A DNA stretch of 58,373 bases from the NCBI GenBank assembly GCA_949289855.1, contig CASEPS010000023.1, positions 1 through 58,373 on the forward strand, in the 5' to 3' direction. The DNA is from an uncultured Erysipelotrichaceae bacterium. GTDB taxonomy: Bacteria > Bacillota_I > Bacilli_A > Erysipelotrichales > Erysipelotrichaceae. Below are positions 4,920-52,145 of this stretch, piece by piece. Within the stretch, counting starts at the first letter, position 1. Every line of letters begins with the position of its first letter. The position numbers and the translations under genes are program-made. Below the pieces are notes generated by a model, which saw only the letters and a list, made by a program, of their open reading frames with translations, was not told the DNA's origin and searched no databases.

Positions 4920-5930
4920 ATGCGTCTTTCTATACCTGAAAACTACAACCCCGTACTCTCTGTCAGAGACACCCAGGAAGCGATCAAATACATCCGTGAC
5001 ACATTCCAGAAAGAACTTGGCAGAGAAATGAACCTTTCCCGTATCAGTGCTCCACTGTTTGTGACACGTTCTTCTGGTCTCAATGATAACCTCAATGGTT
5101 TTGAAAGACCTGTTTCCTTTGATGCCCAGGAACTGCCTGATGAAAGGCTGGAAGTTGTACACTCCCTTGCCAAATGGAAACGTTTTGCCTTGAAGAAATA
5201 TGACTTCAAAGTCCATGAAGGTCTCTATACAAACATGAATGCGATCCGCAGGGATGAAATTCTCGACAACCTGCATTCCATGTATGTTGACCAGTGGGAC
5301 TGGGAGAAAGTCATTCTGAAAGAAGAAAGAACAAAAGAAACCCTTGAAGCTACTGTCCGCACCATCTTCAAAGTCATCAAACATATGGAACATGAAGTCT
5401 GGTACAAATACCCCGAAGCAGTCTGCCATCTGGCAGATGATGTATACTTCATCACTTCCCAGAAACTAGAAGACCTCTATCCTGACCTTTCTCCACGTGA
5501 TAGGGAAACGGCCATCACAAGAGAAAAGAAATGTGTATTCATTGAACATATTGGCAAACCGCTCAAGCGCAGTGGCAAGCCACATGATGGAAGAGCACCG
5601 GACTATGATGACTGGGATCTCAATGGTGACCTATTCTTCTGGCTGCCATCCTTACAGACTGCGCTGGAAATTTCTTCCATGGGCATCCGTGTTGATGAAG
5701 ACTCCATTGTTTCCCAATGCAAGGCTGCTCATTGTGAAGGAAGACTCACCCTGCCTTACCACAAAGCCATCATAAACAAAGAACTGCCATACACCATCGG
5801 TGGTGGTATTGGTCAGTCAAGACTCTGCATGTTGTTGTTGAACAAGGCACATATTGGAGAAGTACAGGCATCCTTATGGCCTGAAAGCATGATTGCAACA
5901 TGTGCAAGACACAATATTCCATTACTCTGA
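4920..5930 (+). CDS. asnA: Aspartate-ammonia ligase (asparagine synthetase A)
   Basis: AsnA makes asparagine from aspartate, ammonia and ATP in the cytoplasm, releasing AMP and pyrophosphate. The 336-residue protein matches the family in length and has its hallmark segments: the N-terminal [19 protein letters not shown], then PVSFDA, DQWDWEK and the C-terminal [12 protein letters not shown], all part of the class II aminoacyl-tRNA-synthetase-like fold. The ATG at 4920 follows GGAGGTG; an in-frame ATG at 4905 overlaps that site and is unlikely. The gene stands alone between two terminators. An asparaginase gene lies about 7 kb away and performs the reverse overall conversion. Confidence 0.96.
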
Positions 5931-5959
5931 AAGCATATGACGCCATATGCTTTTCTTTT
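5931..5959 (+). terminator. asnA terminator
   Basis: AAGCATATG and CATATGCTT form a perfect 9-bp stem around ACGC, followed by TTCTTTT. It begins directly after the asnA stop and abuts the -10 box of the next gene. Confidence 0.88.
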
Positions 5960-5973
5960 GCTAAAATAGACGT
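5959..5973 (+). promoter_or_regulatory. Extended -10 for a leaderless gene
   Basis: TGCTAAAAT (5959-5967) is an extended -10 box, with TAAAAT ending 6 bases before the ATG at 5974. No ribosome binding site fits between them. A weak -35 candidate (ATGACG) falls in the loop of the asnA terminator, so the promoter and terminator share sequence. Confidence 0.55.
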
Positions 5974-7176
5974 ATGAACAAACAGGAATATCTTGCCGCC
6001 ATTGCGGACAAAATCAGAAATTATCCGGAATCTCTTCAGAAGGAAATATTACAGTCCTATTACATCCAGTATGATGCACTTGTGGAAGATGGTTATAGCG
6101 AAGATGAAATACTCTACCAGCTCGGTACACCATCGGAAGTTTATATTGAGGTTTCCAGAAACTACGGAGACATGGAAATCCATAACCATGCCCGGGCTTC
6201 AACAGAGGAAATGAAAAATGGATTTTCTTCGTTTGCCAAAAGCAGTATGAAATTACTGTCAACACTTGGTGAAGCTGTAGGCAAATCCATTGGTGAAGGC
6301 ATACGGGAAACAAGGGTAAAAGCCATCCAGGACCGCTTTACCAAAGACTACCTTGTGCCCATTCCAGCCTATGAGCTGTGTCACCACCTTGTCATTCATT
6401 GTGGGAAAAAGCCGGTGACCATTTATCTCACCAGTGGCCCAACCCTTTCCTTTTGTCTTACACCTTCTTCTGAAAGCAAAGCCACTGCCGACTTTGAAAC
6501 AGAAGGTGACACCATCACCTTGTCTGTGAAAAACGGTGAAGCGAAGTTATCGGTCATGGTGCCAGATATCATCACTTCCATGGAAGTGATTACCGGTCAG
6601 AACATCAATGCTACTGAGCTTTCGGTCAATGCCCTTACATTAACGACAAGTTCTGGTTCCATCTTCCTTGACCGTACTACCACAAAAACACTCACAGCAG
6701 AAACAACTTCAGAAAATGTCATACTCCAGCACAGTTCACTTGAAACAATGCGCATCAACACAAGGTCTGGTGAACTGAAACTCTATGATGTACAAGGTAC
6801 ATTGTATGCAAAAACCACCTCTGGGGACGTCAAAGCAGAACGTTTCATCGGTCCAAAGTTCCTGTTAGAAACAAAATCTGGCAAAGTTACACTTTCTGTG
6901 GATTGTGCAACCATTTCCGTAACCACAGCCTATGGCAATGTGCGCATCTTCAACACAAGCACACCAGAAGTTCTTGCGGTCACAACGGGTTCCGGAAACA
7001 TTGATTGTTCACTTCTCAAAGGTACGTATTCTGCCCGCATTACATGCCGGGAAAACAATTTTGATAACCGCACAGACTTACCGGTTTCCATCATTGATAA
7101 AACAATGCGCATTGTCGGAAGAGGCAAAGCAGCCGTAGACCTTTCCACAAAGAGTGGATTTATCACATTGTCTTAG
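5974..7176 (+). CDS. DUF1700/DUF4097 domain protein
   Basis: The first 70 or so residues (MNKQEYLAAIADKIRNYP, then YSEDEILYQLGTPSEV) match the DUF1700/HAAS-type helical domain that often accompanies PadR-like regulators. From about residue 130 to the end, repeated short beta strands of the TTSGSI, KTTSGDVKAE and TKSGKVTLS kind match DUF4097, a right-handed beta-helix-like adhesin fold. I see no signal peptide or membrane segment, unlike many DUF4097 proteins, so it is probably cytoplasmic. Its exact role is unknown; related proteins are linked to envelope stress. No PadR gene is adjacent. Translation probably starts at the message's first base, because the -10 box is 6 bases upstream. Confidence 0.8.
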   Translation: MNKQEYLAAIADKIRNYPESLQKEILQSYYIQYDALVEDGYSEDEILYQLGTPSEVYIEVSRNYGDMEIHNHARASTEEMKNGFSSFAKSSMKLLSTLGEAVGKSIGEGIRETRVKAIQDRFTKDYLVPIPAYELCHHLVIHCGKKPVTIYLTSGPTLSFCLTPSSESKATADFETEGDTITLSVKNGEAKLSVMVPDIITSMEVITGQNINATELSVNALTLTTSSGSIFLDRTTTKTLTAETTSENVILQHSSLETMRINTRSGELKLYDVQGTLYAKTTSGDVKAERFIGPKFLLETKSGKVTLSVDCATISVTTAYGNVRIFNTSTPEVLAVTTGSGNIDCSLLKGTYSARITCRENNFDNRTDLPVSIIDKTMRIVGRGKAAVDLSTKSGFITLS

Positions 7177-14409: not shown

Positions 14410-15044
14410 TTGTTCATCCAGCTTTCATCATCCGGATTGTTGCGGAAAGCAATGAGTCTTTCCACATCTTCAGGTCTGATATAGCCTTCTTCAGCTGCAC
14501 ACTTTGCGATAGTGTCGAAGTGAACAAGGGAAACATTCTTCACATTGTTGGAAGAAAGGCGGTCATCAGCTTTCTTGAGACCATATGTCACAATGGACAC
14601 AATACCGAGCACTTCTGCCCCTGCTTCACGCAATACATTGACAACATCGACACAGCTGCCTGCTGTAGAAATGAGATCTTCCACAACAACAACCTTCTGA
14701 CCTTTTTCGAGCTTACCTTCAATCTGGTTCTTGCGGCCATGGTCCTTGGATCCGGTTCTGACATAACCCATAGGCATGCCAAGAATATGACCAGTGATTG
14801 CCGCATGAGCAATACCAGCCGTAGAAGTACCCATGAGTACTTCTGCTTCCGGATAGTTTTCCTTTACCAGTTCAGCGAGACCATTTTCGACATCTGTTCT
14901 CACCTTGACATCTGTCAGAGTAAGTCTGTTATCACAATAAATTGGTGATTTGATACCAGAAGCCCATGTGAATGGTTCATCCGGTCTGAAGAATACTGCC
15001 TTGATGGAAAGCAGATCTTTGGCAATTAATTCATCTCTTGTCAT
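14406..15044 (-). CDS. pyrE: Orotate phosphoribosyltransferase
   Basis: The 212-residue enzyme transfers ribose phosphate from PRPP to orotate, giving OMP. The PRPP-binding motif is KVVVVEDLISTAGS, and TSTAGIAHAA with GYVRTGSKDHGRKNQIEG are the usual flexible-loop regions. I chose the ATG at 15044, nine bases after GGGGAGG; earlier in-frame ATGs at 15053 and 15086 touch or precede that site. It starts one base after the pyrF stop, and its own stop overlaps pyrB, so translation is probably coupled. Confidence 0.95.
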   Translation of the reverse strand: MTRDELIAKDLLSIKAVFFRPDEPFTWASGIKSPIYCDNRLTLTDVKVRTDVENGLAELVKENYPEAEVLMGTSTAGIAHAAITGHILGMPMGYVRTGSKDHGRKNQIEGKLEKGQKVVVVEDLISTAGSCVDVVNVLREAGAEVLGIVSIVTYGLKKADDRLSSNNVKNVSLVHFDTIAKCAAEEGYIRPEDVERLIAFRNNPDDESWMNK

Positions 15045-21926: not shown

Positions 21927-22730
21927 TTATGACTGTTGTGACACCTGGAAATACTCCTCCATCGTCAGCCCTGATTCATACAGCTCCTTTGCGAATGCCT
22001 TGCCAACGTAGCGGTAGTTCCATGGCGAATACATCGTACCGGTCACTGCTTCTTTGCCTGCAGGATGTCTTTCAATCCATCCATATTTCCAGGCATTTTC
22101 CTGCAGCCAGTTACTGGCCCCTGTACCTGAAAAGCATGTATCAAGACGGCAATATCCATCGCGTGTACCAAAGTCCGCAAGCAGTCCAAGCTGGTGTTCA
22201 CTGGCTCCTGGATGACAATCCACCTTTGCGGCATATGCCTCTCCATACGCCTCGATAAATGTCTTTTCATTTTCTACTTCAAATGCATAACTGCGATAAC
22301 CACTGATGACCTGTAGTGCAAAACCTGCTTTCTCAGCATCCGCAAACATAGCCGGAAGACTCTCAGCAGCTTCTTTACGAAGGTATTGCGTACCTTCGGA
22401 TGAAACAGACACTTCTATAAGATCAGATGGTACATAGTCACTGCCAATCGGGTGTTCCTGATTCACAATGCGCAACAGGCTGTCATCACTTGTTGTATCG
22501 ATTACCTGAGAAGGTGTCGGCACAGGTGTTCCTGATGGTTCAGGTGTACTGACCGGTGTTTCAGATGGTTCTGGTGTTAAAACAACAGGTTCCTTTGTAT
22601 GGGAAAGCGTTTCATGGATGGTTGTTATGCCTCCCCCAAGAGAAAGCGCGAATAGCGCAACCGATATCAGTGCACATAGCCCGATGATGATATACAGTTT
22701 GATATATATTTTTTTATCTGTATCCTTCAT
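21927..22730 (-). CDS. VanY-family D,D-peptidase-like protein lacking catalytic residues
   Basis: The 267-residue protein has a short cytoplasmic start, one membrane helix at about residues 9-31, a Pro/Thr/Glu-rich wall-spanning linker (about 45-75), and an M15B peptidase domain. His179 and Asp186 of the SEHQLGLLADF zinc motif are present. The second motif, normally E-P-W-H, is S-P-W-N (Ser235, Asn238), so both the catalytic Glu and the third zinc ligand are missing. It is probably a peptidoglycan-binding pseudoenzyme. Translation begins at ATG 22730, seven bases after a -10 box, with no good ribosome binding site. Its upstream neighbour encodes a sigma/TM/SH3 fusion with a similar outer linker. 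Confidence 0.82.
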   Translation of the reverse strand: MKDTDKKIYIKLYIIIGLCALISVALFALSLGGGITTIHETLSHTKEPVVLTPEPSETPVSTPEPSGTPVPTPSQVIDTTSDDSLLRIVNQEHPIGSDYVPSDLIEVSVSSEGTQYLRKEAAESLPAMFADAEKAGFALQVISGYRSYAFEVENEKTFIEAYGEAYAAKVDCHPGASEHQLGLLADFGTRDGYCRLDTCFSGTGASNWLQENAWKYGWIERHPAGKEAVTGTMYSPWNYRYVGKAFAKELYESGLTMEEYFQVSQQS

Positions 22731-22737
22731 ACCCTGG

Positions 22738-22747
22738 ATTTTACCAT
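22738..22747 (-). promoter_or_regulatory. Extended -10 for the leaderless vanY-like gene
   Basis: TATGGTAAAAT on the minus strand, with TAAAAT at 22738-22743, ends seven bases before the ATG at 22730. It abuts the T tract of the preceding terminator, and no recognisable -35 box is present, so the extended -10 must dominate. Confidence 0.55.
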
Positions 22748-22771
22748 AAAAAAAGGGGGATCTCCCCCTTT
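22747..22771 (-). terminator. Terminator of the sigma/TM/SH3 gene
   Basis: AAAGGGGGA and TCCCCCTTT form a perfect 9-bp stem followed by a run of seven T on the minus strand. It lies just beyond the stop at 22775 and separates that gene from the vanY-like gene. Confidence 0.9.
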
Positions 22772-25750: not shown

Positions 25751-26524
25751 CTAAAACAGACTCTTGAGACGATCAAAGTAGTTCACGTTTCTGCCCCGCA
25801 GCATACGCACCTTATGGGTAGAAGAAATGTGCATTTCAATGCGGGATACACCATTTAATTCAATGACATCAGAATCCACCCCGAGAAGTGCACCATCAAA
25901 CGAATCGGAGACAAAGGCAAGGCGGGTGTTTTCACACATGACAATCGGGGAACCAAGTGACCTGTATTTGATATGGTGAATGCCGGAAATTTCCGTCATT
26001 TCGATAAACCGCAGTCCTTCCTGGATCACCGCCCCGCCTAGTGAACGGTTATAGGCAGTGGAGCCAAGCTGTGTACAGACACAGATACCCGTACCGCGGA
26101 ATTCTTCAAACTTTCTGCCATTGACATAGATTTTCATGTATTGTGTCCTGGCCGCATTTTCGATACGTATTTCATTGATTGCCAGTTCTTTCTTGTCATC
26201 AAAAACCGCTTCGAGCAATGGATACGTAATTTCTGTGCATTCTCCCGTTAAATATGCCGTCATGAATTCTTCCAGATCACAGTCACGGTAGTCCGTATAA
26301 AACCCGAGTGTACCTGTATGAATGCCATAGAACTGCACATGGTCGAGCTGGTCCATGTACTTATGCACCGCATAGATAAATGTGCCATCTCCACCAATGA
26401 CAAAAACGACATCTGGCTGTTTTTCATTTTCCATCTGACCTGCTTCATTCAGACTTATGCGTATCACATCCGCCAGAGCAAGTGACTGTTCATCAGGTCT
26501 GTTACATATCGTAAATTTCTTCAT
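25751..26524 (-). CDS. nadK: NAD kinase
   Basis: The 257-residue enzyme phosphorylates NAD to NADP in the cytoplasm. The GGDGTFIYAVHKY motif is near residue 45, followed by INEIRIEN and the conserved glycine-rich CTQLGSTAYNRSLGGAV. The length suits the short Firmicutes form. Its ATG is preceded by a -10 box TACAAT seven bases upstream and no ribosome binding site, so it is likely leaderless, and the promoter lies in the tail of the metS terminator. The PTS-like gene follows closely. Confidence 0.93.
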   Translation of the reverse strand: MKKFTICNRPDEQSLALADVIRISLNEAGQMENEKQPDVVFVIGGDGTFIYAVHKYMDQLDHVQFYGIHTGTLGFYTDYRDCDLEEFMTAYLTGECTEITYPLLEAVFDDKKELAINEIRIENAARTQYMKIYVNGRKFEEFRGTGICVCTQLGSTAYNRSLGGAVIQEGLRFIEMTEISGIHHIKYRSLGSPIVMCENTRLAFVSDSFDGALLGVDSDVIELNGVSRIEMHISSTHKVRMLRGRNVNYFDRLKSLF

Positions 26525-26531
26525 ATTACTT

Positions 26532-26537
26532 ATTGTA
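26532..26537 (-). promoter_or_regulatory. -10 box for the leaderless nadK gene
   Basis: TACAAT on the minus strand lies seven bases before the nadK ATG and immediately after the T tract of the metS terminator. A weak CTGTTG or TTGTCG -35 candidate falls inside the terminator loop. Confidence 0.5.
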
Positions 26538-26571
26538 AAACAAAAGATGCCCCGACAACAGTCAGAGCATC
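26538..26571 (-). terminator. metS terminator
   Basis: GATGCTCTGAC and GTCGGGGCATC form an 11-bp stem with two wobble pairs, followed by TTTTGTTTT on the minus strand, just past the metS stop. Confidence 0.85.
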
Positions 26572-28544: not shown

Positions 28545-28760
28545 AAAACGTCCCTTTGAAAGGACGTATTGCACGCGTTACCACCTTTATCTTGCCTGTA
28601 ACTACAGACCACTCAATGTTTTAACGGACGTCTCCGGATTCTGCTTATCCCAGAACCAGCTCCAGAACCATGTTCACCATACCTCAGCAACAGTTTTCCA
28701 CCATACCCTGCTCTCTTTATGCTTTTTGTTATAGTTACTCTTTCCTTCACAGCTGTTACA
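28545..28760 (-). ncRNA. T-box leader of metS (methionine specifier)
   Basis: The minus-strand leader holds the T-box core AAAGGTGGTAACGCG (28571-28586 region), preceded by stem I with AGAGAGC and GGTGGAAA-type elements. The specifier candidate is AUG at 28669-28671 in GAACATGG, followed by TGGAGCTG. The terminator stem (about 28546-28566, ACGTCC with GGGACGT) is followed by TTTTATTTT. Uncharged tRNA-Met should favour the antiterminator. The core has GGTAACGCG rather than the commoner GGTACCGCG. Confidence 0.92.
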
Positions 28761-51225: not shown

Positions 51226-51252
51226 AAAAATGACAGGATCATCATCCTGTCA
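51226..51252 (-). terminator. Terminator of the RpiR-family gene
   Basis: TGACAGGAT and ATCCTGTCA form a perfect 9-bp stem with a four-base loop, followed by TTTTTATATG on the minus strand. It overlaps the stop region. Confidence 0.88.
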
Positions 51253-52104
51253 TCCCTCGCAATATTTCGTCAACAATCTATAATATGCCTTCTTCTTTAC
51301 AAGATTTCCTTCATAATCACGCTCAAAGAAACATGTATACAACATATCCAAAATATATAACAAGGAAAGCCTTGTCGAAAACGAAGAAATCTTCTCACTA
51401 TGGTCTTCATATGAAGCAAAATACAACCGCATATCCGCATAGGCAAATAACTTCTCCGCCTGCTCACTGCAAATTAATAATATCCTTGTATTATTCTCCT
51501 TCAACTCCTCACAAATACTCTTCATCTGCCAGTTTCTGCCACCAAAGGAAATCACAATTGCAAAATGACCAGCATCAGAAGCAGCTGCCGACAATTTCTG
51601 CAAATACAACTCTTCAGGCACATGGACATCCACTCCGATCTCCTTCATCTGAAAGGCGAAGTTCTTTGCAAAGTGGATATTTCCTGCTGAAGTATAAATA
51701 TCTATTGCCTTGGCCTTTTCCATCTCAAGAGCTGCCCTTCGCAAAACCGATACATCGAGAAGGTTCTTTGTCATCATGACCGTCTTTGCATAATCTTCCG
51801 CAAGATTCTCCGCAATCCGCTGTACAGCCGCACCATCTTCTACCGGATAGTTGAAGTCAAATGCTGTATTTGTCTTCTTCCAGTCTTCTTTATCCTTATT
51901 GATATGGATTCTGAGATCCGCAAAACCAGACACCTGCAGCTTGTCACAAAGGCGATAAAACGTCGCCCTTGCCGCACCACTTCTTTCCATCACTTCTTCT
52001 ATCCCCATGGTCACAAAACCATCCGGATCATCCAGAATCAGTGCACGAATCTTTTCTTCCTTGTAGCCAAGTTCCAGTTTTTCAAGCTTATTCAATATAT
52101 TCAT
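51250..52104 (-). CDS. RpiR/MurR family regulator (HTH plus SIS domain)
   Basis: The 284-residue protein starts MNILNKLEKLELGYKEEKIR, has a helix-turn-helix at about residues 25-65 (TMGIEEVMERSGAARATFYR), and an SIS sugar-phosphate-binding domain at about 115-250 (IDIYTSAGNIHFAKNFAFQM, then HFAIVISFGGRN). RpiR regulators respond to phosphosugars. It lies beside a HAD phosphatase and beta-galactosidase, so it may control them or other sugar genes. ATG 52104 is seven bases after TATAAT; AAGAGGG lies between but sits directly against the ATG, so the message is probably leaderless. Confidence 0.88.
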   Translation of the reverse strand: MNILNKLEKLELGYKEEKIRALILDDPDGFVTMGIEEVMERSGAARATFYRLCDKLQVSGFADLRIHINKDKEDWKKTNTAFDFNYPVEDGAAVQRIAENLAEDYAKTVMMTKNLLDVSVLRRAALEMEKAKAIDIYTSAGNIHFAKNFAFQMKEIGVDVHVPEELYLQKLSAAASDAGHFAIVISFGGRNWQMKSICEELKENNTRILLICSEQAEKLFAYADMRLYFASYEDHSEKISSFSTRLSLLYILDMLYTCFFERDYEGNLVKKKAYYRLLTKYCEG

Positions 52105-52111
52105 CCCTCTT

Positions 52112-52117
52112 ATTATA
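52112..52117 (-). promoter_or_regulatory. -10 box for the leaderless RpiR-family gene
   Basis: A perfect TATAAT on the minus strand ends seven bases before the ATG and begins just after the T-rich tail of the preceding HAD gene terminator. Confidence 0.55.
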
Positions 52118-52145
52118 AAGCAAAAGGACCGCATGATAGCGGTCC
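52118..52145 (-). terminator. Terminator of the HAD hydrolase gene
   Basis: GGACCGC and GCGGTCC form a perfect 7-bp stem around a six-base loop, followed by TTTTGCTTT on the minus strand. Confidence 0.82.

Follow-up and report, generated by a model that had tools for sequence, protein, structure and literature searches.

Predicted leaderless genes set against upstream terminators in an uncultured Erysipelotrichaceae bacterium

Four fused junctions in the window

The window, i.e., the whole stretch of DNA analyzed here (58,373 nt from an uncultured Erysipelotrichaceae bacterium), has four junctions with the same order of parts: a terminator hairpin, a T tract, a -10 box, 6 nt (site 1) or 7 nt (sites 2-4), and the ATG of the next gene. 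Site 1 lies on the forward strand. The asnA terminator (5929-5959, with the stem at 5929-5954 and T-rich sequence to 5959; fold -12.2 kcal/mol, z -6.4) runs into the extended -10 element TGcTAAAAT (5959-5967; TGc at 5959-5961, TAAAAT at 5962-5967), and we read the end of the T tract and the following G as the TG of that element. The ATG at 5974, 6 nt further, opens the gene of a HAAS/DUF4097 protein (5974-7176), predicted to be leaderless with its message starting at the A of this ATG. The HAAS model matches the protein from residue 5 (E 1e-5, just under the Pfam cut-off), which makes a later start codon unlikely.

The other three junctions lie on the reverse strand. At site 2, the hairpin and T7 of an upstream SH3-domain gene (22748-22771, hairpin 22771-22752; -13.1 kcal/mol, z -2.1) precede the extended -10 TGgTAAAAT (22738-22746, TAAAAT at 22743-22738), 7 nt from the ATG at 22730 of a predicted leaderless gene for a VanY-type D-Ala-D-Ala carboxypeptidase (21927-22730; PF02557). 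Site 3 joins the metS terminator (26538-26571, hairpin 26571-26546, then TTTTGTTT; -18.4 kcal/mol, z -8.6) to the -10 box TACAAT (26532-26537), 7 nt before ATG 26524 of the NAD kinase gene (25751-26524), also predicted leaderless. At site 4, the terminator of an upstream HAD-hydrolase gene (52118-52145, hairpin 52145-52126, then TTTTGCTT; -14.9 kcal/mol, z -5.2) is followed by TATAAT (52112-52117) and, after 7 nt, by ATG 52104 of a predicted leaderless gene for an RpiR-type regulator (51250-52104). Several starts are backed by the proteins themselves: the HTH_6 model matches the site-4 regulator from residue 1, and the first residue is common to homologues of both the NAD kinase and tmk, a gene considered below. 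A T-box leader lies 5' of the metS gene (28557-28759, reverse strand; Rfam RF00230, 119.7 bits).

The four hairpins are perfect or near-perfect and are predicted intrinsic terminators, having a stable GC-containing stem and then a T tract; their folds range from -12 to -18 kcal/mol, with z-scores of -2.1 to -8.6 against shuffled controls, site 2 being the least clear. TGn stands directly 5' of the -10 box at sites 1 and 2, as it does in tmk. It is not present at sites 3 and 4 (TTTTACAAT and CTTTATAAT), which are not classed as extended -10. By inspection, none of the four sites has a Shine-Dalgarno (SD) sequence at a workable distance; the GGG or GAGGG at sites 2 and 4 abuts the ATG, too near to serve as one. 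The sequence thus reads at all four sites as the earlier note had described it, with a T tract running into a -10 box 6-7 nt from an ATG that has no usable SD.

A weaker candidate is the 44-bp divergent region (740-783) between tetR on the reverse strand (starting at 739) and an ABC transporter gene on the forward strand. The tetR side reads TTTACA-17-TAAATA-6-ATG and the transporter side TTTACC-17-TAAATA-7-ATG. The TTTACA/TAAATA layout and spacing noted earlier for tetR hold, but the box is weak, since TAAATA fits TATAAT at just 3 of 6 positions. The two mirror-image promoters overlap an inverted repeat, TATTTAC/GTAAATA, which could be a TetR operator.

A preferred distance between -10 box and ATG

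The genome comprises 2.33 Mb in 116 contigs, and our statistics come from 0.84 Mb of it (36%) plus targeted fetches. Here and in stretches of other genomes, we called the genes ourselves by codon usage. A box was counted if TATAAT-like, with one mismatch allowed and this confined to the three central positions, and the gap was measured to a plausible ATG start. We use "family" for our grouping f1 plus Lactimicrobium, and "sister family" for grouping f2 of the same order.

Surveying the spacing from -10 box to ATG, as the earlier note had proposed, gave a peak at 6-8 nt that exceeds the shuffles: 46 of the 687 genes in the 0.84 Mb have a box at this distance, versus 17.3 +/- 3.9 after dinucleotide shuffling. 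The edge is abrupt, with a single gene at gap 5 and 22, 15, and 10 genes at gaps 6 (the mode), 7, and 8, and the profile has a second, leadered hump at about 18-29 nt. With an extended -10 (TGn), 18 genes fall at gaps 6-8, versus 2 at gaps 0-5 and 3 at gaps 9-12. The pooled relatives of the family repeat the pattern (1 gene at gap 5; 24, 17, and 7 at gaps 6, 7, and 8). Within the family, counts at gaps 6-8 exceed the shuffled ones in Lactimicrobium (21 vs 5.8), in genome G007 (13 vs 3.9), and in mixed loci (14 vs 2.3). The two sister-family genomes have flat profiles and no 6-8 nt excess (15 vs 20.1 shuffled in G014, 8 vs 13.2 in G018). The signal is confined to ATG, as GTG and TTG starts have no peak at 6-8 nt in the gene-based gap profile.

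The short-gap genes differ from the leadered ones in other respects. An SD match of at least 5 nt precedes 7 of the 46 (15%) versus 106 of the 161 leadered genes (66%, p = 8e-10), and TGn precedes the box in 48% versus 30% (p = 0.03). A TANNNT-type box about 10-12 nt 5' of the start, the mark of TA-led genes, occurs above the shuffled level. No -35 element is conserved, the best match over all spacings being about 3 of 6 in every gene class. In the whole genome, TGNTAWAATN{6,7}ATG has 25 matches, of which 21, by our own count, open ORFs of 86-599 aa; one of these 21 ORFs (on contig C43) scores poorly as coding. From their N-terminal peptides, we take these ORFs to include rimM, tmk, and lipoproteins. 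Class-wide counts of this motif against its N{11,12} form were set aside in favor of the gene-based profile, since codon phase is not the same in the two gap ranges.

By the strict box, the leaderless share is roughly 4-5% of genes, or some 30 above chance in the 0.84 Mb, an estimate that is probably low for the class, given the strict definition, and uncertain for any one gene; extrapolation gives perhaps 80 leaderless genes genome-wide. The "many" leaderless messages of the earlier note thus amount to a supported class but not the dominant mode. As chance accounts for about one third of the strict-box calls, sites 3 and 4 and tetR, being single genes without TG or conservation, are less secure than the class.

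Two divergent arrangements were also seen. Contig C6 of genome G000 (14518-14560, in L007) has divergent extended -10 leaderless candidates inside 43 bp, TGGTAAAATAACGCCATG on the reverse strand and TGCTAAAATACACGTATG on the forward strand. In L166-L168 (G031, contig C16), a palindromic divergent pair has outward ATGs and a symmetric AGTATAGCA..TGCTATACT core, with each ATG 6 nt from its box. From its symmetry, this core is a candidate bidirectional leaderless promoter.

Conservation in the family

The clearest conservation is that of tmk, recognized by its FEGPDGSGK protein. The motif TGNTATAAT (reported as TGnTATAAT) matches at 8 of 8 positions, 6-9 nt from the ATG, in 20 of 22 family genomes, and all eight positions are invariant in the 19 usable sequences. 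The 30 nt 5' of the box have 27% pairwise identity, the level of unrelated DNA, and these 19 sequences contain no conserved -35 column. Of eight tmk homologues from the sister family, seven scored as SD, and the remaining one (L240) is ambiguous. Judged from the alignment, tmk bears the footprint of a -10 box whose position is tied to that of the start codon.

Other genes are less uniform. Of 31 NAD kinase homologues, 10 scored as leaderless, with the sister family contributing none, as did seven VanY homologues, counting the site-2 gene. The NAD kinase of Lactimicrobium massiliense (Erysipelotrichaceae) matches that of the genome studied here at 70%. The RpiR protein was left out of this comparison, as it has few close orthologues in the family. 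Taken with the sharp gap peak, the scarcity of SD, and the restriction to ATG, the tmk footprint and the family-specific distribution bear out the earlier claim that leaderless promoters recur in this genome.

Upstream of the NAD kinase gene, L063 has a six-codon ORF (MKRDRK) that opens 7 nt past a -10 box and ends in a stop codon overlapping the NAD kinase ATG. On its layout, this is a possible leaderless mini-cistron with reinitiation. The corresponding region in L064 is without the ATG of this mini-ORF.

Terminators next to promoters, and the exchange of junctions

A terminator adjoins the promoter of 12 of the 46 short-gap genes versus 12 of the 161 leadered genes (p = 0.0013); the T tract begins 5-14 nt 5' of the -10 box in the former and within 16 nt in the latter, and the 12 short-gap genes include the four sites that prompted the question. 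The abutment of terminators and -10 boxes pointed out in the earlier note is thus enriched among short-gap genes but not exclusive to them. It is weaker in other genomes of the family (5 of 48 short-gap genes). In ten cases from the genome studied here, the T tract begins 18-21 nt before the ATG, which is close to the minimum length for a T tract, a -10 box, and a gap of 6-8 nt.

Orthologous junctions differ between relatives. The metS-NAD kinase junction has a terminator followed by an SD in L. massiliense and three family genomes (L092, L051, L056, L062), versus terminator, TACAAT, and ATG in the genome studied here. The rimM junction has a terminator followed by an SD in most family genomes; G012 has CATCCTTTTTTAGTACAATATAGTAATG (terminator, -10, ATG), and in our genome the T tract begins about 18 nt 5' of an extended -10, which precedes the leaderless ATG. 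The gene 5' of rimM is presumably rpsP, to go by its C-terminal peptide. These two comparisons indicate that terminator-SD and terminator-promoter junctions swap between relatives.

About 12 other junctions of the genome have a terminator and then an SD and start codon within 16-24 nt, with no room for a promoter. Their terminators are perhaps intra-operon and partial.

IS1182 transposase genes

A search for a T tract with an extended -10 and an ATG showed several genomes to have the motif in repeated copies; in G113, one sequence accounts for 19 of the 21 matches. The ORFs encode IS1182-family transposases (of four proteins tested against NCBIfam NF033551, two are over the cut-off and two just under). 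In seven elements with diverged hairpins, from six genomes of the same class as ours and one Tenericutes plasmid, the 5' end consists of a hairpin, TTTTGnTATAAT, 6 nt, and the ATG. Folding of four of these hairpins gave -17 to -24 kcal/mol. The fusion of terminator hairpin and extended -10, with a predicted leaderless ATG, occurs at transposase genes in L278, L282, L298, L299, L300, L301, L302, and L308. Elements of Enterococcus durans/hirae, Lactiplantibacillus plantarum, and Limosilactobacillus reuteri have the hairpin and abutting -10, but a leader of 60-72 nt; the fusion was not seen in elements of Pseudomonas, Segatella, and Sulfurimonas plasmids. Counts of TTTTGNTANAAT, high in G113 and G212, were rejected as a measure of chromosomal leaderless genes, because nearly all matches in G113 and most in G212 are one IS element. 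An element that limits incoming transcription is expected to have a terminator before its transposase promoter. By analogy, the IS1182 parallel suggests that the use of the fusion is insulation.

Proposed mechanism and alternatives

We propose, with a probability of roughly 0.87 and from sequence evidence, that these are sigma-A promoters giving leaderless messages, often set against an upstream terminator whose T tract lies in the promoter spacer, so that the downstream gene is insulated. The promoters, often extended -10 and with no recognizable -35, would depend mainly on the -10 box and have their transcription start on the A of the ATG or 1-2 nt upstream of it, and the messages would be translated through recognition of the 5' AUG. 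Where the upstream gene is co-directional, the promoter would often lie directly against its intrinsic terminator, and the T tract would fill the spacer and, when followed by G, could supply the TG of the extended -10. Such a junction would end one transcript and begin the next, with the terminator protecting it. As read-through RNA would carry the ATG without a ribosome-binding site, we infer that the downstream gene is insulated from its neighbor.

The insulation part, though not leaderlessness, faces a serious competitor, to which we give somewhat less than an even chance: that abutment reflects genome compaction, with both parts placed in a short gap and leaderless promoters needing less room. 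Most fused junctions are just 38-70 nt long, so abutment follows in part from short intergenic regions; leadered promoters also adjoin terminators, and -10 boxes are generally enriched right after co-directional terminators. Compaction sits less well with the commoner abutment of leaderless promoters, or with the IS1182 elements, which, though not confined to a gap between host genes, have the fusion with diverged hairpins.

That the messages are nearly leaderless, starting a few nucleotides upstream with leaders of 1-4 nt, seems unlikely. Gaps of 8 and 9 nt do occur, and in the four tmk homologues with gap 9 the start may lie 2-3 nt before the ATG; the modal gap of 6, in contrast, puts the A of the ATG at the usual seventh base after the -10 box. 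An addition to the proposed leaderless promoters that we consider very improbable is that the polymerase, on releasing the upstream RNA, stays over the downstream -10, takes up sigma, and starts the leaderless message; the fused geometry would favor such retention after termination, and expression of the second gene would then depend on termination of the first. Also very improbable is that the -10 boxes are chance matches in AT-rich DNA and that expression comes from read-through or from upstream promoters that escaped detection: co-directional genes probably receive some read-through, chance alone would yield about 17 of the 46 short-gap boxes, and many other terminators of this genome precede an SD without a promoter, but such chance matches would not explain the sharp spacing edge and the excess over shuffles, the lack of an SD behind the terminator at the four sites, the tmk footprint, or the absence of an excess in the AT-richer sister genome G014, where they should be commoner.

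Comparison with known systems

Leaderless genes have been predicted in 56 of 209 Firmicutes genomes, mainly Lactobacillales and Mycoplasma, with a TG peak (Zheng et al. 2011, PMC3160421). In streptococci, they were mapped at 8.6-9% of mRNAs or operons (PMC6431027, PMC6212727), and a pbp2A reporter of S. pneumoniae documents efficient leaderless translation in a Firmicute (PMC6212727). The Firmicutes background to which the earlier note pointed is thus not surprising in itself (PMC3160421, PMC6431027, PMC6212727), and what is new is the lineage, together with the fusion to terminators. Our search of the open-access literature found no report of leaderless messages in Erysipelotrichaceae or of their fusion to terminators, an absence that is weak evidence because open-access papers alone were covered.

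Our results would extend leaderless expression to a common gut family. The contrast inside one order, between a family with such genes and a sister family without them, bears on how leaderless translation is gained and lost, and the stop-start junctions, their SD orthologues, and the IS1182 parallel form natural pairs for studying reinitiation after termination, as well as insulation. Such genes will be misjudged wherever start codons are annotated or promoters predicted on the assumption of an SD.

The TA-led genes (PMC3160421) resemble ours in lacking an SD and in having a -10-like box some 12 nt 5' of the start and a TG peak in low-GC Firmicutes; they belong mainly to Lactobacillales and Mycoplasma, whereas ours are from Erysipelotrichaceae and often terminator-fused. 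The streptococcal transcripts (PMC6431027, PMC6212727) are likewise a minority class (8.6-9%) with cross-species conservation and an extended -10. Their starts were measured, unlike ours, which are predicted, and the portions of those reports considered do not mention terminator fusion. In vitro work on E. coli has established that polymerase can be retained once termination is complete (PMC6978322, PMC11347151). Recycling termination similarly has a promoter near a terminator, but at distances of up to about 1000 bp, while in our junctions the T tract reaches the promoter or overlaps with it (PMC11347151, PMC6978322). The IS1182 elements (NF033551) share the terminator hairpin, the T tract, and TTTTGnTATAAT, and the seven sampled elements share the 6-nt gap to the ATG as well; several from Lactobacillales differ in the long leader after the fusion.
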